DNA of 64,000 nt from Alloactinosynnema sp. L-07 (lineage in GTDB: Bacteria; Actinomycetota; Actinomycetes; Mycobacteriales; Pseudonocardiaceae), in assembly GCF_900070365.1 (NCBI RefSeq), contig NZ_LN850107.1:930001-994000 (forward strand). Direction: 5' to 3'. Positions 40,137-52,169 of the stretch are shown piece after piece. The notes below the pieces were generated by a model that saw only the letters and a list, made by a program, of their open reading frames with translations, was not told where the DNA came from and ran no database searches. The number at the start of each line of letters is the position of its first letter. Position 1 is the first letter of the stretch. The position numbers and the translations under genes were made by a program.

Positions 40137-41723
40137 ATGAATCACCCCGACTATGTCGTCGTAGGTGCTGGTAGTGCGGGGTGTGCGGTGGCCGGGAGGC
40201 TGGCCGCGAGCGGGGCTGAGGTGGTCTTGCTCGAGGCAGGCCCTGGTGACAAGAACATGTTCGTGCGCAAGCCAGGGATGATCGCGGTCTTCCACAACGT
40301 GCCGCAGCTCAAGAAGCGACTCGACTGGGGCTATTACTCCACCCCGCAGGCGAGCGCGCTGGGCAGGCGGATCCCGCAGACGCGCGGCAAGGTGCTCGGC
40401 GGGTCCAGCTCGGTCAACGGGATGATCTTCGTGCGCGGAAACCGGCGCAACTACGACGACTGGGGGCTGCCGGGCTGGTCGTTCGACGACGTGCTGCCCA
40501 GCTTCAAGCGCATGGAGGACTGGGCCGACGGGCCGAGCGAACTTCGTGGCACGGGTGGGCCGATCAAGGTCACCCGCCAGCAGGGCATCACGCCCGCGGC
40601 TGAGGCGTTCGTCGAGGCGCTGAGCGAGACCGCCGGGGTGAAGAAGAACGACGACTACAACGGTGAGACGCAGGAAGGCGCGAGCTTCATCCAGCAGAAC
40701 ATCGACCGTGGCCTGCGCTACAGCGCCTCGATCGGCTACCTCACGCCCCGGCCGAACCTGACGGTGCGGACCGGTGTGACGGTGTCGCGGGTGGTCATCG
40801 AAGGCGGTCGGGCGACCGGTGTCGAGATCCTGACTCGCGCGGGCAAGGAAATCATTCATTGCTCTCGGGAGGTCGTGCTCGCGGCCGGGGTGTTCGGGTC
40901 CGCGCAGGTGCTGATGCTGTCCGGGGTCGGTCCCGCCGCGCATCTGCGGGACGTGGGTGTCGAGGTCCGTGCCGATCTGCCGGTCGGCGACAACCTGCAC
41001 GATCATCTCTTCGTGCCGATGACGTTCCTGACGAAGAAGGCCGTCCACCGCGGCACCGCGCCTTACTTCGCCTCCGGGGTGGTCAAAGAAGCGATCCGGG
41101 GCAACACGTGGATGGGCCGCACGGTGTTCGAGGCGGTCGGCTTCGTGCACAGCTCGCGTGGCACCGCCGTGCCCGACATCCAGTTGCTCGCCCTGCCGTG
41201 GTCATACCCGCACCCCAACCAGGACGCGCCGATCCGCCATGCCGTGGACAAGCGGTCCGCGCTGACGGTCATGTCGACCCTGATCTACCCGGAGAGCCGC
41301 GGCACACTCCGGCTGGCGTCGGCCGACCCGACCGCCGCGCCGATCATCGACCCGGCGTATTTGACGTGCGGGCGGGACGCGGATCTGCTGTTGGAGGGCA
41401 TGAAGCTGATTCGCGAGGTCATGGCGAACAAGGTGATCGCGAACGATCTGGACGGCGAACTGTCCCCGGGACCGGACTTCGCCGACGACGCCGCGCTGGC
41501 CCGCGAACTGCCGAACCGCGCGACGACGGTCTATCACCCGGTTGGCACGTGTCGGATGGGTGTGGACGAGCGTGCGGTGGTGGACACGGAGTTGAAGGTG
41601 CGGGGGATTGAGGGGTTGCGGGTGGCGGACGCGTCGGTCATTCCGGACATCGTCGGCGGCAACACGAACGCCCCCGCGATGATGATCGGCGAACACTGCG
41701 CCCAGTTGATGGTTGGCGCATAG
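40137..41723 (+). CDS. GMC-family FAD oxidoreductase
   Basis: 528-residue glucose-methanol-choline oxidoreductase. FAD loop VVGAGSAGCAVAGRL, GMC signatures GKVLGGSSSVNGM and VFGSAQVLMLSGVGP, catalytic His in TVYHPVGTCRMG, and NTNAPAMMIGE near the end. ATG 40137 has GAGG 7 bases upstream (ATG 40131 would be too close). Oxidises an alcohol; the KstR-like operator suggests a steroid or lipid-alcohol substrate (inference). Confidence 0.9.
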   Translation: MNHPDYVVVGAGSAGCAVAGRLAASGAEVVLLEAGPGDKNMFVRKPGMIAVFHNVPQLKKRLDWGYYSTPQASALGRRIPQTRGKVLGGSSSVNGMIFVRGNRRNYDDWGLPGWSFDDVLPSFKRMEDWADGPSELRGTGGPIKVTRQQGITPAAEAFVEALSETAGVKKNDDYNGETQEGASFIQQNIDRGLRYSASIGYLTPRPNLTVRTGVTVSRVVIEGGRATGVEILTRAGKEIIHCSREVVLAAGVFGSAQVLMLSGVGPAAHLRDVGVEVRADLPVGDNLHDHLFVPMTFLTKKAVHRGTAPYFASGVVKEAIRGNTWMGRTVFEAVGFVHSSRGTAVPDIQLLALPWSYPHPNQDAPIRHAVDKRSALTVMSTLIYPESRGTLRLASADPTAAPIIDPAYLTCGRDADLLLEGMKLIREVMANKVIANDLDGELSPGPDFADDAALARELPNRATTVYHPVGTCRMGVDERAVVDTELKVRGIEGLRVADASVIPDIVGGNTNAPAMMIGEHCAQLMVGA

Positions 41724-41728
41724 GTCGA

Positions 41729-43200
41729 TCAGATGGGCCGGAGTGGGTCGACGAGTTCGATGCCGATGGCGACGACCCCGAGTGCTTCGCGTTCGGGGGA
41801 TATATCTGGCGGATGTTCGCCAGTTGCTGTTCGCGGGTCGCCAGCGGGTTGACCGACGCGGCGACCTCGTGGTCGAACATCTCGTCGAAGCTGGTGTAGC
41901 GGGCAACACGGGTGACCCGGGTGAGGACTTCGTCGCCCTGGCAGCGGAACCGGATCAGCGAGCCTTCCTTGATCTTTTTGCGGCTGGAGTCGTTGACGCG
42001 GATCTCCGTGGTCTTGCGCCCGGTCGCGATGAGGTCGAAATAGCGTTTGTAGATGCCCATCTCGTGGGCGCGGACGGGCAGGCTGATCGGGCGGGCGGAC
42101 ATGAGGCGACCGAGTTCCTTTACGGTGAACGAGCGGAAGAAGTGTTTAGGGTCGGTGAGTAGCTCCCCGACAAGCCAGACCAGCGAGTCCACATAGTTGT
42201 CGATGTCGCCAGGCCACGTGGTGGTGTCGAGCATCCAGGGCTCGACATCGGCGGGCAGAACCGCGCGGCCCTGCTCGCGCAGGAGTGACTTGGACAGCTT
42301 CGCGCCGGTCGGTGCGAGCACCTGCGGGGTGAAGATCCGCATCGGCATTTGTCCGGCAGGGGTGGCCAGTGCGCCAAGGGCGCCATCGACGAGCTGGCAG
42401 CCGAATGCCCAGTCGCCGCCCTTCATCATCACGTGCAGCGTGCTGGTGTCACGCCCGAAAGCGCGTTCCTTGACCAGGTTCCGATAGAGAGTGGCCAGAT
42501 CGAGATACGGCTGGTCGTCCTCTGGGTCGACATGAGTCTCGTAGTCGCCGTGGTCCAGGCAGACCGCGCCAAAGGTCGCGCCGTCCTCGTCAAGTCTGAG
42601 CAGCTTGGTTCGGTCGGCGCGTTTCTCGGCCCATCCGCAGTTCGGGCAGGGGACTCGGATGTGGACGGCGCCATGCGACGGCGCCATCCACCAACGGATG
42701 TCTTCCAGCTGACCGAGCGTGCGCAGGAACTCGGCTCGGAATCCGGGTGTGGCCTGCTGGTCGGTGTAGGTCTCGACCTCGTAGGTGGTGTCGGTGGCCT
42801 CGGAAAGCGAGTCGAAGAACGCGGTGTAGTACGTGCCGATCAGCTCGGCGATCTTGTCCTTGCCGAGCGCATGATAATAGGTCTGCTGATAGGCGTGGTG
42901 GGTCTCGGGGTCGAGGACGACCTCGTGTGGGGCGTTGTCCAAGGCGCCGAAGCGGACGACGGTTTCGATGGAGAACTCGCGGCGGGCGGTCTTGGCCAGC
43001 AGGAACGCCGCTGTCTGAACCAGGTTGGTGCCCAGGTGTGGGGCGCCGTTGATCTGGGTGCCGACAACGAATTCGATCCGTGCCGGGCGGGCCGCGTGAA
43101 CCCGGGGCCGCAGTAGGTCGATGCTTCGTAGCAGCGCGTTGGCCAGGATGCTGTTCGGTGACAGCAGCAACGAACTTGTTCCGTTGCGGCTCAACGACAT
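41729..43200 (-). CDS. Class I LysRS-like domain fused to ASCH (frameshifted end)
   Basis: N-terminal class I aminoacyl-tRNA-synthetase-like domain: PHLGTN (residues 54-59, the HIGH site), zinc-type residues C185/C188 and C214/H217, GGDW at 261, KLSKS at 301-305 (the KMSKS site). The order matches class I LysRS. Its anticodon-binding domain is replaced by an ASCH domain (about 374-490; GRKTTEIRVND, EGSLIRF). As sequenced, a C5 tract (41795-41799) puts the last ASCH strand (LGVVAIGIELVDPL) out of frame; uncorrected, the ORF runs to 41638, overlapping the GMC gene. Restoring one C gives a 490-residue product ending at 41729. ATG 43200 with GAGGAG; TGATG overlap with the ATPase gene. Confidence 0.72.
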
Positions 43201-43805
43201 CACGCTCCTCGGCTGGGCTTGGGCAGGCGGAGGTTGGCGCAGATGAAGTCAAGCCGCGCCGCAGCCGAGTCGGGGGCGACGAAAACCGGCTCATAACCAG
43301 CGTCGTAGTAGCCCTGCACGATCAGCTCGTGCACTCGGCGGATCTCGCGGTCCTTCGCCCAGACGATGTCGTCGGGATCCTCCAGGGTGTCCAGCGGGTC
43401 GAGAACGAAGATCGTGTCGTAGCGGTGGCGCTTGGTGGCTTCCTCAAGCTGAGGGGTCGGCTTGAGTCCGAAGAAACCTTCCCAGCCGAAGCCGTCTGGG
43501 ATGCCGCGGTTGTAGAACCTGATCCCCCTGGTGTGCGCGATGTACTCGGCGACGAACGCCTCCAGTACTTCGAGGGAGTACTCGCGCCGGTCTTCCTTGC
43601 GCAGGTGCCTGCCCAGCCGTTCGCGGTGCTTGCGATAGATCTCCCGGCCGGGCTCATCCTTCATACAGGGCATTCCGGCCGTGTGGATCGCCTCGATCAG
43701 GTCGTCCTTCCCCGACGAGGGGCCACCGGTGATGACGTGGCGGCTTGGTGGGCCGCCTGCCGCGGCGGCGAGAGCCGCTGCCAGTGCGCTGGGGTCCCTT
43801 GTCAT
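43200..43805 (-). CDS. AAA_28-type P-loop NTPase
   Basis: 201-residue P-loop protein of the AAA_28/NadR-like predicted kinase group: Walker A GGPSSGKDD near residue 28, a conserved DEPGREIYR segment, RFYNRGIPDG, then a DTIFVLDPLD strand and RAxFI-like end (RLDFICANL). The Walker Thr is Asp (GKD), which is unusual. Likely phosphorylates or hydrolyses a nucleotide-linked substrate. ATGA overlap with the upstream gene and overlap with the downstream LysRS-like gene show one operon. Confidence 0.78.
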   Translation of the reverse strand: MTRDPSALAAALAAAAGGPPSRHVITGGPSSGKDDLIEAIHTAGMPCMKDEPGREIYRKHRERLGRHLRKEDRREYSLEVLEAFVAEYIAHTRGIRFYNRGIPDGFGWEGFFGLKPTPQLEEATKRHRYDTIFVLDPLDTLEDPDDIVWAKDREIRRVHELIVQGYYDAGYEPVFVAPDSAAARLDFICANLRLPKPSRGA

Positions 43806-44698
43806 GGGTGGGATCCGTTCTCGCGGTCGATGGTGATGTCGGGCCGCGGGTCGACGCCGAGTAGTTCGTCGACCCAGATGCCGCCCAGCTCAGTGTCGTC
43901 GTGCAGGGCGTGGACGAACTGTTCGCGCGAGACGCCCCCGGCTGCGGCTTCGGTCATCCGGGAGGCCTGCGCTTCGGTCAGTCTGGGTGTCCAGCCCGCC
44001 AAGGCGATCAGCTGATCGACTGAGAGATCGTCGGCGCAAGCGCTGGTGTAGCTCATTGCTTCCGCGCGGGCGGCTGCCCACCGCCATGCCGCGGTCACCG
44101 CCATTTGGATCAAGTCGACCCTGGTCGCTCGCAGGCTCACCAGCCGATCGACCGCAAGCAACTCGGCGCGGGCGGCATAGATCGCCGACCACAACCTCGT
44201 GAGCTGTTCCTCATGCTCGGTGACCTCCCAGGCGAAGGGATCGGCTGGGACAGGCTGCCGGACGGTGACCGGCGCCAGCCTGGGCGCGATCATCGGCATC
44301 CTGGTGAATCGCTCCGCATCGGCCAGCAATTCCCATGCCATGCGCTCTATCAGCTTCGGCTCCACTCGCTTGCGGAAGTGGTGGACCTCGTGCCCTGCCT
44401 GCTCGGCGGCAAGGTCTCGCCGGGCGGTCAGGTTCAGCCCCGGCTCTGCCGGGAACAGCCCGAACAGCGCCCGCGCCGCGGGTGCGTACCGGGCATCCGG
44501 GAACCGGGCCAGTAGTCCGCGCAGCGTTCCGTCCAAGGCCGCCGTCCGGCTAGCCGGATCCGTGGGATCAACGGCCCTGGCGATGACTCCACGCAGCTCG
44601 AGCAGGATCGGGTCTGCGCCGGTCACCGGCAGCCCCGGCCGCAGCAGTCTGGTGAGTGCCGCGATCACCTCATCCTCGACTGGGCTTTTTGTGGGCAT
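43802..44698 (-). CDS. Uncharacterised helical protein, first gene of cassette
   Basis: 298-residue, mostly helical protein with no recognised catalytic motif. It has a segment seen in several actinobacterial proteins of unknown role: AARALFGLFPAEPGLNLTAR followed by HHFRKRVEPKLIERMAWELL. A glycine-poor C-terminal helical part follows (YAARAELLAVDRL, then AGWTPRLTEAQ). The ATG lies in one arm of a 17-bp inverted repeat. Might be a sensor or regulator for the downstream NTPase and LysRS-like enzyme (inference). Confidence 0.65.
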   Translation of the reverse strand: MPTKSPVEDEVIAALTRLLRPGLPVTGADPILLELRGVIARAVDPTDPASRTAALDGTLRGLLARFPDARYAPAARALFGLFPAEPGLNLTARRDLAAEQAGHEVHHFRKRVEPKLIERMAWELLADAERFTRMPMIAPRLAPVTVRQPVPADPFAWEVTEHEEQLTRLWSAIYAARAELLAVDRLVSLRATRVDLIQMAVTAAWRWAAARAEAMSYTSACADDLSVDQLIALAGWTPRLTEAQASRMTEAAAGGVSREQFVHALHDDTELGGIWVDELLGVDPRPDITIDRENGSHP

Positions 44699-44734
44699 GG
44701 CTTTAGTCAAGCATGAAGCCCACAAAATGCCCAG
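44680..44734 (-). promoter_or_regulatory. 17-bp inverted repeat over the cassette start codon
   Basis: CTGGGCTTTTTGTGGGC (44680-44696) and GCCCACAAAATGCCCAG (44718-44734) are inverted copies with one mismatch and a 21-base spacer. The ATG of the cassette's first gene (44698-44696) sits at the edge of one arm. In RNA this would bury the start codon; as DNA it would be an operator. Confidence 0.7.
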
Positions 44735-44904
44735 TCCTGGTGGTGGAGGATGTGTTCAGTGGTCGGCGAAGACCTGTCAGTGTGGCGCATCAGTGGGGCG
44801 GGAACATCCAGGTCGTCTCCGCCCCGTGGCGCCTATGGACCTCGCGGGTGCGACTCCTCCGAGAGCACGACATGAGCGCCGATTTCTGGGGAAAGGCGGC
44901 ATGA
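44713..44904 (+). CDS. Possible short ORF before the secreted protein
   Basis: 63-codon frame that overlaps the following ATG by ATGA, with a C terminus REHDMSADFWGKAA. Its own start lies in the inverted repeat without a ribosome site. No family recognised. Probably either a small coupled ORF or the decayed end of an older gene. Confidence 0.25.
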   Translation: MKPTKCPVLVVEDVFSGRRRPVSVAHQWGGNIQVVSAPWRLWTSRVRLLREHDMSADFWGKAA

Positions 44905-44969
44905 TGAGTAGGAACTTGCGCGCGCGAATTCTCTCGGTGGTTCTATCCGTTTGGTACTCCCACTGCTAG
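44901..44969 (+). other. Signal-peptide-like ORF ended by an in-frame amber stop
   Basis: ATGATG at 44901 has a good GGAAAGG ribosome site and encodes MMSRNLRARILSVVLSV, basic then hydrophobic as in a secretion signal. The frame meets TAG at 44967-44969 and then continues open as the secreted-protein ORF at 44979. In another frame the same bases read GTPTAS, like a cleavage region. The export signal of the following protein therefore looks broken by a stop or a pair of frameshifts. Confidence 0.5.
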
Positions 44970-44978
44970 TCGAAAGGT

Positions 44979-45680
44979 GTGGCGTCGGCAGGCCGCGCAC
45001 AGTCCGGGCTGGGAGGAAAATATCAGGATTACCTTGGATCCACTGCGGCCGCCAGCGCCGGGGCGGATCAATGTGATTTCGAACCGTCGAAGCGGGCAGG
45101 CAATTGGGTTTACCTTACCGCGGCTGAGAAGGCGGTACAAACACCCGAAACGGAAAGCATAAATTCTAGCTACTGTGTCAGCGGGAATTGCTGGAATCGA
45201 TACAATGACTTCCAGTCGGATGCGAGCATCTCGGGCAACTGGGGTTACGGAGGCACGGTTCTCGGGCGCGTCGATCTGTATGCGTCGTACCAATTGACTG
45301 GGCCTCAGACGGTGAGCAAGCCGGTACAGTACAAGAATAGTCGAGCGACAACGAATGTCGTGTTCACCGGCGACTTGATCAATGCTGCGCCTGGTGCGAC
45401 TGGCACACCGGTTCCGGGCAAATTTAGCCTCTATAACGCCGGGGATATTCCCGCCGGTCTCACGCGGTCGTGGGCACCCAATGGCTACAAATCCTATGAC
45501 AACACAATGTGGAACCACAGTCAGGTTCAGCAGTGGTCCTGGAACGCCAGCGGATACAGTGGCTACTGGTATGCTTACATCAAGAGTATCTCCACCCACA
45601 CGTCGGACAAGGTGACCTATCGCTTCTATTCGGTCAACCAGCTTCCGGCCAACGCATACGGAGCAGGTTGGCGCGCATGA
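44979..45680 (+). CDS. Secreted-type hypothetical protein (start damaged)
   Basis: 233-residue protein rich in Tyr, Trp, Asn and Ser, beta-rich in appearance (NWGYGGTVLGRVDLYASYQL, WSWNASGYSGYWYAYIKS), with two close Cys (YCVSGNCW) that could form a disulfide. No family recognised. The in-frame signal-like segment lies upstream of a TAG. Lower GC and more A/T-ending codons than neighbours suggest recent acquisition. Its stop overlaps the next gene by ATGA, suggesting a toxin-immunity or enzyme-partner pair (inference). Confidence 0.55.
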   Translation: MASAGRAQSGLGGKYQDYLGSTAAASAGADQCDFEPSKRAGNWVYLTAAEKAVQTPETESINSSYCVSGNCWNRYNDFQSDASISGNWGYGGTVLGRVDLYASYQLTGPQTVSKPVQYKNSRATTNVVFTGDLINAAPGATGTPVPGKFSLYNAGDIPAGLTRSWAPNGYKSYDNTMWNHSQVQQWSWNASGYSGYWYAYIKSISTHTSDKVTYRFYSVNQLPANAYGAGWRA

Positions 45681-45964
45681 GCGAATTTCCACCACGCTAC
45701 CGAGATTATCTGTCAGCGCCCGAGGGGGTCGAATCCGTCGAGCCTGACAGTCGCGAGAGTCCTCCGTTCGAGGAATCGGTCACCATCATGAAGTTGCGCG
45801 ATGAGGATGTGTGGCATGCGGTGTGGCACGGCGAGCACGATGCTCTCGGCGAGTTCGACGGCACGCGTGAGGACGCAATTCGTTGGGCGCGGGACAGATC
45901 CAGCCGTTGTTTGATCTTCTCCGAGGAAACCAGTGATCTGGTTCCGTTGGGGGACGACAGCTAA
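45677..45964 (+). CDS. Small acidic hypothetical protein, possible immunity partner
   Basis: 95-residue acidic cytosolic-type protein (MSEFPPRYRDYLSAPEGVES, KLRDEDVWHAVWHGEHDA, then EETSDLVPLGDD). No family recognised and no signal peptide. Overlaps the secreted protein's stop by 4 bp. Size, acidity and coupling are typical of immunity or antitoxin proteins, but this is only contextual. Confidence 0.6.
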   Translation: MSEFPPRYRDYLSAPEGVESVEPDSRESPPFEESVTIMKLRDEDVWHAVWHGEHDALGEFDGTREDAIRWARDRSSRCLIFSEETSDLVPLGDDS

Positions 45965-46020
45965 TCCGGCAGGTCGTCAGACGTTCGACTCAACTTCTAA
46001 AACATGGTCGACGTGGACAT

Positions 46021-46055
46021 CAGGCTGCTCGTGCGAACCTCGCGCGAGCAGCCTG
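46021..46055. terminator. Strong hairpin, likely terminator
   Basis: Perfect 11-bp inverted repeat CAGGCTGCTCG (46021-46031) / CGAGCAGCCTG (46045-46055) with a 13-base loop, between the small acidic gene and the large nuclease gene. No U-tract. Confidence 0.6.
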
Positions 46056-46190
46056 GGCGTCTGCTGCAACTTCGTGGCCCAAGGCGGGTCAGCGGATGGC
46101 GGGTCGTTGAACGTTCCCTGAACGGGTCTATCGGAAACGCTCTTGGGTGCCTACGGTCGGCCAGTCCCGCCGTCGTCCTTTGGAGACCCG

Positions 46191-49100
46191 TTGCGCTCGC
46201 GTCCGCTCAGACCCACCAGGCCCGTAGTGGCCGCCTTGGTCACCGCGTTGGCGGTGGTCCCGTCGATCGTGATCCTCAGCGCCCCCGCCGCGACGGCGGC
46301 CGCGTTCAGCCCCGGTGACATCGTCGTCGCCCGGGTCGGTACCGGCGATGCCGCGCTTACCAATGCCGCGACGCCTGTCTTCCTTGATGAGTTCACCCCG
46401 GACGGGACCCTGGTCCGCACGGTCGCGCTGCCCACCGCCGGGTCGGGCGCCAACCGGCGGGTCACCACGAGTGGTTCGGCCACCTCCGAGGGCGGGCTCT
46501 CCCTTTCGCAGGACGGCCGCTACCTGACCCTTGGCGGCTACGACGCCGACCCGGGGACCGCGAGTATCGCCAGCTCCACCACCGCCGCGGTCAACCGCGT
46601 CGTGGCGCGGGTCGACGTCGACGGCGCCGTCGACAGTTCGACCGCCATCACCGACGCGTTCAGCGGCAACAACATACGGGGCGTGGCCAGCGCGGACGGC
46701 GGTCGTCACTGGGCCGTCGGCGCCAACGGCGGCGTGCGCCTGGCCGAGCACGGCGCGACCACGACGACGCAGATCAACACCGTGGCGCCCACCAACATCC
46801 GTACCGCCACGGCGGCGGGCGGGCAGCTGTTCGTCTCCACCGGCAGCGGCACGACCGGCGTCTACACCGTCGGCACCGGCCTGCCGACCACCCCGGGGCA
46901 TACCCCGGCGCTGGTCGCGGCCGTGCCCAGCCCGTACGCCGTTGTCGCGCTCGACCGCGACCCCGGTGTGTCCGGTGTGGACACTCTCTACGTCGCCGAC
47001 GACTCGGCCGCGCCCAACGGTGGCATCCTCAAGTTCTCGTTCGACGGTGTCACCTGGACCGCGCGCGGCGCGTATCGGCCCAACAGTAGCGGCGTGCGCG
47101 GCCTCACCGGCACGGTGACGGGCTCGTCCGTTTCCCTCTTCGCCACCACCAGCGCGACCCTGGGCTCGCTGGTCCGCGTCGAGGACACCGCGGCCTTCGC
47201 CGAGCCGATCGCGGCCACCGGCGCCGTGCTGCGCACCGCCTCGGCCAACACCGCCTTCCGCGGTGTCGCGTTCGCACCGTCCTCTTCGGTCACCGCGCCG
47301 TCGATCGTCGGCGAGCCGCAGGACGCGGCCGTCGCGAGCGGCGCGTCGGCCACGCTGACCGTCTCCGCGACCGGCACCGGCCCGCTGGCCTATCAGTGGT
47401 ACACCGGCACCGCGGGTGACACCGCGAACCCGATCGCGGACGCCACCAGCGCGTCGTACACCACGCCTGCGCTGACCGCGCCCGCCTCCTACTGGGTCCG
47501 GGTCACCGGCCCCGGCGGCCAGGCCGACAGCCGCACGGCGACCGTCACCATCACCGGCGGCACCAACTCCGCCCCGACCATCGGCCCGGTCCCCGTGGCC
47601 GAACTCGCGCTGACCGTAGGCGACCCGGACAACCCGCCCGCGCTGCGCACCGTCGACATCGCCGACGCCGAGACCCCGGCGAGCGGCCTCACGATCACTG
47701 TCGACAGCAGCAACCCGGCCGTCGCGTCCGGTGGCTCCACCGGCAGCGGTTCGCCCCGCACGCTCACGGTCGACCCGGTCGGCGTCGGCCACGCCACGCT
47801 GACCGTCACGGTCTCCGACGGAGCGTTGACCAGCGCGACGACGTTCGCGGTCGCCGTCTCGGCCGCGCGGCCCGCGGGCACGCACAACCACTACGGTCAC
47901 AGCGATGCCAGCACCGCGATCGACCTCGGTGGCGGCGCGATGGTCGTCGCCGATGACGAGACCAACGTGTTGCGCGTCTACGACCGCGACCACTCGCGCT
48001 ACCCGGCGCAGTCGTTCGACGTGCGCGCCGCCGGTCTGGCCCTGCGCGACGCCGACGTCACCCGCGAGATCGACATCGAGGCGTCGGCCCGCCAGGGCGA
48101 CACCATCTACTGGGTCGGCTCGCACGGACAGAACTCCTCGGCCAAGACCCGCCTCAACCGGCAGGAACTGTTCTCCACAACCGTCAGCGGCACCGGGACG
48201 GGAGCTTCGCTCTCGCTCGGCGGCAGCTACCAGCTCCTGCGCAACGACCTGATCGCGTGGGACCAGGCCAACGGCGACGCTCTCGGCATCGCCGCCGCCG
48301 CGACCCGCGCGCCCGAGGGTGACGGGCTTGGCGGCCCGACCGGCGTCAACATCGAAGCCGCCGAGTTCGCCGCCGACGGCAGCCTGCTTCTGGGCTTCCG
48401 CGGCCCGCTGACCAGCGACAACAAGGCGATCGTCATCCCGGTGACCAACATCGCCGCGCTGGTGGCGGCCAACCCGACGACCGGCGTCAGCGCGTCGTTC
48501 GGCACCGCGTTGCGCTGGGACCTCGGCGGTCGGGGCGTGCGGGAGATCCGCAAGAACACCGCGGGCGAGTACCTGATCATCGCCGGTCCGACCAGCGCGG
48601 GCACGGGTGCCGCGGGCGAGTTCAAGTTCTACTCGTGGGACGGCGACGCCGCCCACCAGCCGCTGCCGCGCGCCGGGTCGCTCGACACCGTCGCCGCCAC
48701 CGGCAAGCCCGAGGCGATCGTCGAGGTCCCGTCGCCGCTGACCGACACCTCGTCGGTCCAGGTGCTCGCGGACTCCGGTGACACCGTCTTCTACGGCGAC
48801 GGCATCATCGCCAAGGACCTGCCGCCGGCCCAGCGCAAGTCCATCAGCGCGGTCGTGGCCGTCGGCGCCGGCCCGGTCTGCACCTCCGGCGTCAGCACCG
48901 TCGGCTCGGTCCAGGGCACCGGAGACGCCAGCCCCAAGGTCGGGCAGACCGTCACCGTCCGCGGCACTGTGGTCAGTGACAGCGAGGGCGCCCAGCCCGC
49001 GTTGCGCGGCTTCTACCTTCAGGACGGCGGCGACGGTGACGGCGCCACCTCCGACGGCCTGTTCGTCTTCGACAACGGCGCCAACCTGGTCTCCCTGGGT

Positions 49101-52040
49101 GACGTCGTCCAGGTCACCGGCCTGGTCTCGGAGTTCCAGGGCCAGACGCAGCTCGCGGCCAACGCGGCGGGCGTCCAGTCCTGCAACCGGCAGGGCGCGG
49201 TCACCCCGACCGACCTGATCCTGCCGCGCGCGACCGCGGGCGACCTGGAGTCCTACGAGGGCATGCTCGTCCGGTTCCACCAGACCCTGACCGTGACCGA
49301 GCACTTCCAGCTCGGCCGCTTCGGCCAGGTAGTGGTGTCGGCGGGCGGCAAGCTCCAGCAGCCGACCTCGGTGATCCGCGCGACGGACACGGCGGCGGTC
49401 AGCGCCAAGCAGAACGCCAACAACCTCAACCGGCTCATCGTCGACGACGCCACCAACGGCCAGAACCCCGACCCGATCGTCTTCGGCCGGGCCGGGCAGC
49501 CGCTGTCGGCGGCCAACACCCTGCGCGGCGGCGACACCCTGACCGACGCGGTCGGCGTGCTCACCTACACCTGGGCGGGCAACGCGGCCAGCGGCAACGC
49601 CTACCGGCTGCGCCCGCTCAACGCGCTCGGCGGCACGGCCGTGTTCGACGCCGCCAACGAGCGGCCGACCACCCGGCCGGGCACCGGCGCGGGCGCGGTG
49701 AAGGTCACGGGCGCCAACCTGCTCAACTTCTTCAACACCTACACCGGCTGCAAGTTCGGCACCCTCGGCGGCCCCGCCGACTGCCGCGGCGCGAACAACG
49801 ACACCGAGTACCAGCGCCAGCTGGCCAAGGAGGTCGCCTCGCTGCGGTTCCTGGACGCCGACGTGACCGGCGTGATGGAGATCGAGAACGACGGCTACGG
49901 CCCGACCAGCGCCATCCAGGCCTTGGTCGACGCGCTCAACGCCGCCGACGGTCCCGGCTCGTGGGGCTTCGTGGACGCCGACGCGGCCACGGGCGTCACC
50001 GATGTCGCGGGCACCGACGCGATCAAGACCGCGCTGCTGTACCGGGCCGACCGGGTCATGCCGGTGGCCGGTGCGACGTTCGTCGACCAGAACCCGGTCT
50101 TCGAGCGGCGGCCGGTGGCGCAGACGTTCCAGACGCCCGCCGGTGCGCGCCTGACCGTCGTGGCCAACCACTTCAAGTCCAAGGGGTCGTGCCCGACGTC
50201 CGGTCCGGACGCTGACCAGCGCGACGGCCAGAGCTGCTGGAACGCCCGGCGCACCCAGCAGGCCACCGAACTCGCGGACTGGCTGGACTCCGTCGTCAAG
50301 CCGGGCGCGGGTGACGATGACGTCCTGATCGTCGGCGACCTCAACTCGTACGCCGGTGAGGACCCGATCGCGGTCCTCGAAGCCACCGGCTACACCAACC
50401 TGGCCAAGGCGTTCCACGGTCCGGAGACGTACTCCTACGTCTTCGACGGGCAGTGGGGCTACCTGGACTACGCGCTGTCGTCGCCGTCGCTCACCGCCCA
50501 GGTGACCGGCGCGGGCGAGGCGCACATCAACGCGGACGAGCCGTCGGTGCTTGACTACAACACCGACTTCAAGTCCGCGGGCCAGGTCGCGTCGCTGTAC
50601 GCGCCGGACCGGTTCCGCACCAGCGACCACGACCCGGTGCTCGTCGGCATCGACCTCGGCGCGCCGCCGGTGATCTCCGGATCTCCGGTCGCGGGCACGG
50701 TCGGCCTGCCGTACTCGTTCGGGTTCACCCTGAGCGGCCCGGCGAGCGTCACCCTGGCGTCTGGCTCGCTGCCCGCGGGCGTGTTCCTCAACGAGGACGG
50801 CACCCTCACCGGCACGCCGACCAGTGCTGGGACCTCCGCGTTCACCGTGCGCGCGACCAGCGCGTTCGGTGTGTCGGAGGCCGCGGTCTCGCTGACCGTC
50901 GCGCCTGGCGTGTCCACTGTGGACCTCGTGGCCGGTCCGTCCCCGGTGGCCACGGGTGGCCAGGTCACGCTGACTGCCACGGTGTCGGCCGCGGTCGCTG
51001 TCTCGGGCACGGTGACATTCCGCGAGGGCTCCATGGTCCTCGGTTCGGCTGAGGTCGCAGGCGGTACCGCTTCGCTTGTGGTGTCGGCGCCCGCCTCGGG
51101 CCACCGATCGGTGACCGCGGAGTTCTCGGGCAACGCCGACGTGGCCGGGTCGGTCTCGGCCGCGGCCTCGTTCGACGTGGTCGACCCGGTGACCCTGGGC
51201 GGCACGCTGCCCGGCGGCACGGTCGGCGCGGCCTACTCGGCGGCCGTCGAGCACACCGGCGGCGCGCCGGTGACCCTGTCGGTGTCGGCGGGCACGCTGC
51301 CCGCGGGCCTGACGCTGACCGGCGCGACCCTCGCGGGCACGCCGACGGCGGCGGGCACGTTCACCTTCACGGTCAAGGCCGAGAACGCGGTGTCGAGCGC
51401 GACCCGCGACTACACGGTCGCGATCGGCGCGGCGGCGACCACCACGGTCGTCACCTCGTCGGCCAACCCGGCGATCACGGGGACCACGGTCCGCTTCACC
51501 GCGACCGTGTCCGGCCCGCTGGTGCCGACCGGCACCGTGCAGTTCAGCGTGGACGGCAACGCGATCGGCTCCCCGGTCGCGTTGGTCAACGGCACGGCGG
51601 TCAGCCAGCCGGTCGTCGCGGTGACCCTGGGCGGCCACCAGGTGACCGCGGTGTACTCCGGTTCGGCGTCGTTCACGGCGAGCACCGGGACGCTGAACCA
51701 GGTCGTCCATGTAGGGATCAAGATCCTGTCGCCGACGGCGGGCGGCTCGTACTCGGCCGGGGCGAACGTCCCGATCCGGTTCCAGCTGACCTCGGCGTCC
51801 GGCCAGCCGCTCCCGGCCCTGGCCTCGGCGCTGCTGCTGGCGAGCGGCAGGCTGACGGTCGCGGGCAGCGGGGCGCAGTCGTTCCCGGCGACCCGGCCTT
51901 CGTTCGACCCGTACACCAACACCTTCACCCTGGTGTGGAACACGGCTCGGCGGCCCGCGGGCCAGGTGACCGCCACGGTGTCGGTGACCTACCCGGACGC
52001 GCCGACCCAATCGGTCCCGGTGAGGTTCACGCTGCGGTGA
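46191..52040 (+). CDS. ExeM/NucH-type extracellular nuclease, multidomain
   Basis: 1949-residue secreted protein. Start TTG 46191 is preferred because TGGAG lies 5 bases upstream. A signal peptide (LRSRPLRPTRPVVAALVTAL to the ATAAA cleavage region) is followed by a repeat-rich N-terminal beta domain. Next come an Ig-like domain (about 370-455), a DUF3616-like propeller (about 563-863), an OB/lamin-like region (about 897-1010) and an endonuclease/exonuclease/phosphatase domain (about 1170-1485; VMEIENDGYG, VANHFKSKG, VGDLNSY, TSDHDPV). Putative-Ig and Big_3-type repeats follow to the end. Predicted to degrade extracellular DNA. Monocistronic between two terminators. Confidence 0.9.
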   Translation: MRSRPLRPTRPVVAALVTALAVVPSIVILSAPAATAAAFSPGDIVVARVGTGDAALTNAATPVFLDEFTPDGTLVRTVALPTAGSGANRRVTTSGSATSEGGLSLSQDGRYLTLGGYDADPGTASIASSTTAAVNRVVARVDVDGAVDSSTAITDAFSGNNIRGVASADGGRHWAVGANGGVRLAEHGATTTTQINTVAPTNIRTATAAGGQLFVSTGSGTTGVYTVGTGLPTTPGHTPALVAAVPSPYAVVALDRDPGVSGVDTLYVADDSAAPNGGILKFSFDGVTWTARGAYRPNSSGVRGLTGTVTGSSVSLFATTSATLGSLVRVEDTAAFAEPIAATGAVLRTASANTAFRGVAFAPSSSVTAPSIVGEPQDAAVASGASATLTVSATGTGPLAYQWYTGTAGDTANPIADATSASYTTPALTAPASYWVRVTGPGGQADSRTATVTITGGTNSAPTIGPVPVAELALTVGDPDNPPALRTVDIADAETPASGLTITVDSSNPAVASGGSTGSGSPRTLTVDPVGVGHATLTVTVSDGALTSATTFAVAVSAARPAGTHNHYGHSDASTAIDLGGGAMVVADDETNVLRVYDRDHSRYPAQSFDVRAAGLALRDADVTREIDIEASARQGDTIYWVGSHGQNSSAKTRLNRQELFSTTVSGTGTGASLSLGGSYQLLRNDLIAWDQANGDALGIAAAATRAPEGDGLGGPTGVNIEAAEFAADGSLLLGFRGPLTSDNKAIVIPVTNIAALVAANPTTGVSASFGTALRWDLGGRGVREIRKNTAGEYLIIAGPTSAGTGAAGEFKFYSWDGDAAHQPLPRAGSLDTVAATGKPEAIVEVPSPLTDTSSVQVLADSGDTVFYGDGIIAKDLPPAQRKSISAVVAVGAGPVCTSGVSTVGSVQGTGDASPKVGQTVTVRGTVVSDSEGAQPALRGFYLQDGGDGDGATSDGLFVFDNGANLVSLGDVVQVTGLVSEFQGQTQLAANAAGVQSCNRQGAVTPTDLILPRATAGDLESYEGMLVRFHQTLTVTEHFQLGRFGQVVVSAGGKLQQPTSVIRATDTAAVSAKQNANNLNRLIVDDATNGQNPDPIVFGRAGQPLSAANTLRGGDTLTDAVGVLTYTWAGNAASGNAYRLRPLNALGGTAVFDAANERPTTRPGTGAGAVKVTGANLLNFFNTYTGCKFGTLGGPADCRGANNDTEYQRQLAKEVASLRFLDADVTGVMEIENDGYGPTSAIQALVDALNAADGPGSWGFVDADAATGVTDVAGTDAIKTALLYRADRVMPVAGATFVDQNPVFERRPVAQTFQTPAGARLTVVANHFKSKGSCPTSGPDADQRDGQSCWNARRTQQATELADWLDSVVKPGAGDDDVLIVGDLNSYAGEDPIAVLEATGYTNLAKAFHGPETYSYVFDGQWGYLDYALSSPSLTAQVTGAGEAHINADEPSVLDYNTDFKSAGQVASLYAPDRFRTSDHDPVLVGIDLGAPPVISGSPVAGTVGLPYSFGFTLSGPASVTLASGSLPAGVFLNEDGTLTGTPTSAGTSAFTVRATSAFGVSEAAVSLTVAPGVSTVDLVAGPSPVATGGQVTLTATVSAAVAVSGTVTFREGSMVLGSAEVAGGTASLVVSAPASGHRSVTAEFSGNADVAGSVSAAASFDVVDPVTLGGTLPGGTVGAAYSAAVEHTGGAPVTLSVSAGTLPAGLTLTGATLAGTPTAAGTFTFTVKAENAVSSATRDYTVAIGAAATTTVVTSSANPAITGTTVRFTATVSGPLVPTGTVQFSVDGNAIGSPVALVNGTAVSQPVVAVTLGGHQVTAVYSGSASFTASTGTLNQVVHVGIKILSPTAGGSYSAGANVPIRFQLTSASGQPLPALASALLLASGRLTVAGSGAQSFPATRPSFDPYTNTFTLVWNTARRPAGQVTATVSVTYPDAPTQSVPVRFTLR

Positions 52041-52051
52041 CTTCGTGAGTG

Positions 52052-52089
52052 AAGCGGGGCTCGGCGACTTCGGACGCCGGGCCCCGCTT
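52052..52089 (+). terminator. Intrinsic terminator after the nuclease gene
   Basis: 15-bp stem AAGCGGGGCTCGGCG (52052-52066) / CGCCGGGCCCCGCTT (52075-52089), one G-U wobble, 8-base loop, followed by TTTCTTTC. Twelve bases after the stop codon. Confidence 0.85.
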
Positions 52090-52169
52090 TCTTTCGTCGC
52101 CGAGTCGCTGATGGGCCGCCTGAATGTGAGAGTGGTGGGCGTCAGACAGCCATGAAGGGAGCGGGCACC

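Follow-up and report, generated by a model that had tools for sequence, protein, structure and literature searches.

A lysyl-tRNA synthetase-like domain paired with ASCH in a three-gene, apparently mobile cassette of Alloactinosynnema sp. L-07

The 64,000-nucleotide stretch of Alloactinosynnema sp. L-07 analyzed here (the window; contig NZ_LN850107.1, positions 930,001 to 994,000) carries at 41726..44737 a cassette of three minus-strand genes, which encode, in this order, an all-helical protein (HEL), a P-loop NTPase-like protein of the AAA_28 family, and a fusion of a lysyl-tRNA synthetase (LysRS)-like domain, named LRL, with an ASCH domain. The catalytic protein has the predicted fold of a class I LysRS without its anticodon-binding domain, joined to ASCH. 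The adenylation motifs of LRL are under strong constraint, the trio is co-inherited, the cassette has its own paired operator, and relatives reside on chromosomes, plasmids and phages of soil bacteria. The reading favored here, with somewhat less than even confidence, is that of a mobile, self-regulated module in which LRL would aminoacylate an RNA or nucleoside presented by ASCH, while HEL would act as the repressor.

The extent of the cassette was defined by blastn against a second full copy in the same genome (L052, G000:C1:1947000-1966000; cassette at L052:8698-11632): exactly 41726-44737 is common to both, at 82% DNA identity, and nothing outside it. This copy is 89% identical to that of the window in the fusion, 91% in the AAA_28 protein and 79% in HEL, and it has its own operator pair. 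As the original prediction stated, the genes are linked by 4-bp overlaps, one at each of the two junctions between HEL (43802..44698, 298 aa), the AAA_28 protein (43200..43805, 201 aa) and the fusion open reading frame (ORF), which has a GTG start and is 521 aa long as read (41638..43203). From about residue 471, the last ~50 residues of the window fusion match no relative and leave the frame of the relatives, and the 3′ end overruns into the convergent neighbor gene; the relatives, the second copy in this genome included, are typically 488-491 aa long and have an intact C-terminus. None of the three proteins has a PADLOC match at E<=1, and their NCBIfam matches all lie far below the cut-off.

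LRL comprises fusion residues 1-373 (42085..43203). Its predicted structure, compared with 1irx, has the catalytic Rossmann fold of class I LysRS, with 1irx ranking 2.7 Z above BshC, which bears out the synthetase-type core that had been proposed; the link to LysRS rests on this predicted structure, with marginal sequence similarity. The motifs follow in the same order as in LysRS, namely the HIGH-like PHLGTN (residues 55-60, 43024..43041), the two halves of a zinc knuckle, C186-x2-C189 (42637..42648) and C215-x2-H218 (42550..42561), placed as in those LysRS that carry one, such as L060 and L062, and the KMSKS-like KLSKS (residues 302-306, 42286..42300). These motifs had been read correctly beforehand, apart from the numbering of the zinc ligands, which shifts by +1. 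Over 240 LRL proteins, the HIGH-type and the KMSKS-type motif are each found in 239, and the zinc ligands are near-invariant. Pfam gives no match within residues 1-373 of the window protein, and PF01921, the class I LysRS family, is absent from this protein as well as from the 12 families that 38 members, taken together, match at E<=1. A search of the PDB by sequence with the LRL-ASCH profile returned weak, unrelated matches alone. In a tree, all LRLs group together against class I LysRS (100/100), with long branches flagged by the program.

The GKDH segment of class I LysRS, which has a role in lysine binding, is not kept in LRL. Two alignments place it on S-T-L-H or T-L-H-V in the window, at a position that is variable across LRLs (T-L/M-H/Y-V), and the LRL-specific KGxDW, which follows directly, aligns with the LysRS GGS. 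The DW was considered as a substitute for GKDH and rejected because both alignments put GKDH on the preceding segment; it is a feature of LRL's own. The anticodon-binding domain is lacking as well: fusion residues 382-471 are ASCH, and stand-alone LRLs have a median length of 371 aa, against 492-580 aa for the nine LysRS proteins aligned. The original prediction had this domain replaced by ASCH. Its absence is confirmed, but replacement is not the better description, which is that of an LRL lineage devoid of an anticodon-binding domain that pairs with ASCH, fused or adjacent: in a set of 29 loci, made up of viral and plasmid loci and of the genus of G193 (the Streptomyces set; the G193 LRL is 92% identical to a Streptomyces protein), 26 have a separate LRL gene of ~371 aa with ASCH 0-24 bp downstream.

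The ASCH domain (fusion residues 378-476, 41776..42072), also foreseen, is matched by Pfam PF04266 at residues 382-471 (E 6.2e-10, 40.1 bits against a cut-off of 21.2). Its motif GxKTxExR, here GRKTTEIR (residues 395-402), agrees with the GxKxxxxR motif named for ASCH proteins (PMC5615036), and its closest solved structures by sequence are the archaeal 2z0t, 1s04 and 1xne. YqfB, an ASCH amidohydrolase of E. coli, is described as having a Lys-Thr-Glu catalytic triad that includes Thr24 (PMC6972931). The window domain keeps the motif Lys and Arg (K397, R402), whereas the position of Thr24, aligned by motif, is occupied by E400, so that the triad is not present and a YqfB-type hydrolase is unlikely. 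At two loci in the genus of G193 (L047:1504-2340 and L050:1504-2361), ASCH is followed in frame by NUDIX-hydrolase-like sequence, recognized by eye.

The middle protein matches AAA_28 (PF13521) over the full profile length (E 8.8e-24, 85 bits against a cut-off of 27), in agreement with its earlier description as a P-loop NTPase with GKD in Walker A. In this Walker A, TGGPSSGKD (43704..43730), Asp replaces the Ser/Thr of the ordinary AAA_28 relatives examined. Among 26 cassette copies, 23 have GKD, two GKE and one AKD, a departure from GK[ST], whereas chromosomal relatives have GKS or GKT in all eight examined of 20 distant places (27-34% identity). Judged from these sequences, the acidic residue is a hallmark of the cassette. 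The AAA_28 profile has no PDB match at E<=0.01.

HEL is predicted to be all-helical with two domains (pLDDT 84, pTM 0.45). In line with its earlier description as an unrecognized helical protein, Pfam finds nothing in the window HEL and no family common to HEL members, and structure comparison gave no convincing relative. The inverted repeat that had been seen on its start codon proved to be a conserved 16-bp element, TGGGC(A/T)TTTT(C/G)TGGGC, with one copy 5′ of the HEL start (44718..44733, minus strand, TGGGCATTTTGTGGGC) and a second, inverted, over the start codon (44681..44696, plus strand, TGGGCTTTTTGTGGGC). Two copies are present in 34 of the 34 loci with a detected HEL start (22 duplicate loci excluded), and the element was not found in 77 loci without one, of which 20 are informative (an LRL start and at least 1.7 kb upstream); L080 and L117 among these negatives are the same phage. 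The apparent exception, L153, which has the element and no detected HEL start, carries a diverged HEL (profile E 4.5e-81). Exact matches in the whole 7.4-Mb genome are confined to the two cassette copies, and when up to two mismatches are allowed, the pattern has seven matches in all, as does its reversed control. The element thus accompanies HEL, and HEL, or else the AAA_28 protein, is likely to be the DNA-binding autoregulator. The pair is usually inverted across the start codon; at L017, L023, L025 and L153 it forms direct repeats further upstream, which in L153 precede a Shine-Dalgarno-like AAGGAGG. The HEL leader folds well as RNA (z -6.3), but a hairpin that regulates HEL translation was rejected, since the four direct-repeat loci do not fit it. 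A DNA operator fits both arrangements alike and is preferred.

The window fusion has 684 homologues at E<=0.001, with ASCH in all 120 of those listed, and the expectation that the trio would be conserved is borne out at 31 of 42 loci retrieved, where all three genes keep this order; both results argue against chance ORFs. HEL matches with at least 71% identity occur at seven places in six of 120 same-family genomes, and all seven adjoin AAA_28 and fusion genes; two further matches in these genomes are weak and partial. The family is sporadic: of 296 genomes from the phylum, only 4 contain a match for the fusion. Over 23 loci, the three proteins diverge in parallel, with correlations of 0.91-0.94 between their pairwise distances, a level reached in 0 of 2000 permutations, and dN/dS is 0.06-0.34 over the three genes in seven pairs. 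HEL evolves at about double the rate of the other two, with a median amino acid difference of 0.384 against 0.17. Those listed members of the family that bear a name are mostly called “hypothetical” or “ASCH domain-containing,” and a few “tRNA synthetase.”

Decay is frequent. The ASCH end alone is kept in 8 of 42 loci (L035, L037-L043) and the LRL end alone in none; some of these ASCH-only frames are still open, perhaps kept for a function. Close relatives of the window have in-frame stops in LRL-ASCH at positions 125, 233, 343 and 358, each in a single locus; a stop at 377, seen in some split copies, marks where the LRL gene ends. Programmed recoding was rejected, decay being likelier because the stop positions are unrelated and confined to single loci. 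For L118:12001-13422, L153:6001-7395 and L154:10001-11437, the PLSDB gene table, which is known to be incomplete, shows an ASCH-sized coding sequence only, and the fusion frame is uninterrupted. Overall, these loci show the pattern of an element that is dispensable and has been acquired repeatedly.

Mobility is also apparent from the surroundings. The region 41712-52153 has no DNA match in two congeners, in which the conserved flanks lie ~2.8 kb and 5.6 kb apart. Homologues are found on 16 plasmid records, 9 of them with a query coverage of at least 80%, in three records of the Streptomyces phages Picard and Mojorita, and at 12 IMG/VR loci, one of which is probably the same record as the Glycomyces contig of L018. 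Both phages, with Streptomyces venezuelae ATCC 10712 as recorded host, carry a minimal LRL + ASCH pair. In Picard this pair is annotated as a 371-aa “tRNA synthetase” and a 119-aa “RNA binding protein,” which overlap by 4 bp and adjoin a serine integrase; no HEL, AAA_28 gene or operator was found there. In PHROG, the window fusion matches phrog_35625 (“tRNA synthetase,” E 9.4e-125) and phrog_19935 (“RNA-binding protein,” E 2.7e-22) nearly end to end, so that these belong to the same family by sequence, although the phage versions are two genes.

From 176 selected flanking genes, 150 in 29 loci were scanned (26 excluded, from L026, L031, L034, L075, L076, and two of L019), and they include four phage integrases, two resolvases and two Tn3 transposases. 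No flanking gene is conserved across loci, the most widely shared being XRE-type regulators and cassette-antisense ORFs, in at most eight loci. PADLOC matched 53 models at E<=1e-5 in these 150 genes, scattered, with none in more than three genes among the 25 models listed. A defence island around the cassette was rejected on these grounds. Re-examination of six large neighbors gave one weak candidate match, at L029, and a pair of genes immediately upstream of the L014 cassette (L014:224-6378, Crossiella sp. S99.2), which encode a pPIWI-RE-type DinG (E 7.4e-101) and a PIWI protein (E 1.2e-89). Mobility is better supported than defence.

LRL occurs in Actinomycetota, Bacillota and Pseudomonadota, often on mobile DNA. 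In the Streptomyces set, the fused form, accompanied by HEL and AAA_28, occurs at L146 and L153, and no ASCH was seen at L139; no HEL or AAA_28 gene was found in 27 of the 29 loci, 14 of which span only ~1.5 kb on each side. An LRL match, in some cases a mere fragment, is present in 21 of 150 genomes of the genus of G193. A distant LRL clade with 176 matches, 120 of them listed, is found in Actinoalloteichus and other actinobacteria. Its clusters, read by eye at four loci (L121-L124) and Pfam-checked in L123 only, have an alanine-dehydrogenase-like gene, two methyltransferases, LRL and an S-adenosylmethionine (AdoMet) decarboxylase on one strand, near which lie an M20 peptidase, a small protein bearing a short motif and a regulator that looks XRE-like by eye and has no Pfam match; they look like undescribed biosynthetic or amino-acid clusters. 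On Macrococcus-type plasmids (L120:5461-9375 and L169:3503-7417), LRL is grouped with a pair of ATP-grasp genes, a small gene and a divergent MFS transporter, possibly a compact peptide or nucleotide natural-product cluster, and a Pantoea plasmid carries a methyltransferase, LRL, a LOG-type protein, a DMT transporter and an NTP pyrophosphatase. The small protein present in each of the four actinobacterial clusters read is homologous to that of Macrococcoides (hhalign E 6e-6, 117 columns), and both have a K-x2-E-x-R motif resembling that of ASCH. They were rejected as ASCH because the likeness rests on this short motif and lacks significance (hmmsearch 0.41-0.76, hhalign 0.1, no informative Pfam match); the Macrococcoides protein has no PDB match. 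What all these settings have in common is LRL, accompanied in the best-sampled branches by ASCH.

The original prediction proposed charging of an RNA, modification of a small molecule or a tRNA-directed defence or stress role, and each of these is a hypothesis here too. In the favored module, LRL would use ATP to activate an amino acid, perhaps other than lysine given the missing GKDH segment, as an aminoacyl-adenylate, and pass it on to an acceptor presented by ASCH, either an RNA (at a base or an end) or a nucleoside. A precedent for the transfer is GluQ-RS (YadB), a catalytic-domain paralogue of GluRS described as making glutamyl-queuosine on tRNA-Asp (PMC3542578), which indicates that RNA aminoacylation without an anticodon-binding domain is feasible. 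GluQ-RS derives from GluRS, and transfer by LRL is predicted by analogy with it. GluQ-RS is not known to have ASCH or a cassette. HEL would bind the operator pair and repress the operon, and the AAA_28 protein may serve as a switch that depends on nucleotide, or as a nucleoside kinase with altered chemistry, its Walker A Ser/Thr being changed to an acid. The benefit, to the host or to the element, may lie in stress, conflict or addiction.

Several observations weigh against this module. The sequence similarity of LRL to LysRS is marginal (hhalign E 0.029, probability 1.7; best blastp E 0.047), the ASCH part of the predicted model is weaker (block pLDDT 55-77), HEL has no demonstrable DNA-binding fold in the comparisons made, and no tRNA gene was found in the window. 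The fusion gene has a stop, frameshift or deletion in 10 of 31 trio loci, some of which may be assembly errors, so that its activity appears dispensable. Distant LRLs adjoin transporter, ATP-grasp, AdoMet decarboxylase and methyltransferase genes, which suggests small-molecule work and makes a small-molecule acceptor the main rival: LRL would form an aminoacyl-adenylate and, in the manner of MshC, couple the amino acid to a metabolite or nucleotide in free form, and the cassette would make or detoxify a nucleotide-like compound, with ASCH binding the nucleoside part. BshC and MshC, the latter of mycothiol synthesis, act on sugar thiol precursors and, unlike the window LRL, are not known to be fused to ASCH. 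Against a small-molecule acceptor, the trio and the Streptomyces pairs have no conserved biosynthetic or transport neighbors, and 1irx ranks structurally above BshC; this alternative is a serious one that nevertheless seems doubtful.

A toxin-antitoxin or anti-phage system, in which LRL-ASCH would alter host or phage tRNA under the restraint of HEL and AAA_28 and so serve addiction or superinfection exclusion, fits the mobility and decay: the genes are carried by phages beside an integrase, by plasmids and at the IMG/VR loci, decayed copies are many, HEL evolves faster than its partners, and the L014 cassette follows the pPIWI-RE pair. Putative toxin-antitoxin (PIN)-GNAT-EVE operons are likewise described as combining ASCH and a P-loop ATPase with an enzyme that may act on tRNA (PMC7641849), although there the enzyme is GNAT-EVE and the ATPase AAA_17, instead of LRL and AAA_28. 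Such a role is rather unlikely, given the missing PADLOC matches, the scattered defence neighbors and, because HEL and AAA_28 were not found in most of the Streptomyces set, the lack of a constant antitoxin. It is improbable that LRL no longer adenylates and acts as a degenerate or sensory protein that binds a ligand and regulates via ASCH or HEL; the loss of GKDH and of the Walker A Ser/Thr would suit it, but the near-invariant motifs and zinc ligands and the purifying selection speak against it. Least probable is an accessory tRNA synthetase that charges an ordinary tRNA under stress or confers resistance to synthetase inhibitors. The LysRS-like fold agrees with it, as does the genome's own lack of a class I LysRS above the family cut-off, but LRL has no anticodon-binding domain and does not keep the LysRS motif residues.

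Looking beyond the cassette, LRL might, on a still less certain view than that of the RNA- or nucleoside-directed module itself, represent a deep-branching and essentially unstudied group of enzymes that form aminoacyl-adenylates. It would pair repeatedly with ASCH, perhaps also with other PUA-like readers, to mark a specific nucleoside, free or within RNA, with an aminoacyl group, and the cassette would be a mobile RNA-aminoacylation system with an NTP switch and a repressor. If true, this would add a new kind of mark on RNA or a nucleotide, like glutamyl-queuosine but written by a horizontally moving enzyme encoded on mobile DNA, and it would account for the tRNA-synthetase-like gene beside the integrase of phage Picard; the minimal pair of Picard and Mojorita makes the question directly testable in lysogens. 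Annotation would gain too, as neither Pfam nor NCBIfam has a model for LRL in the proteins tested. The open-access literature searched, which mostly leaves subscription papers and preprints outside its scope, yielded nothing that joins an ASCH domain with lysyl-tRNA synthetase, nothing on this cassette by title or abstract and no paper on a tRNA synthetase of Streptomyces phage Picard. Apart from the cassette, the stretch of the window that is lacking at the DNA level in the two congeners contains a 1965-aa ORF on the plus strand (46143-52040).

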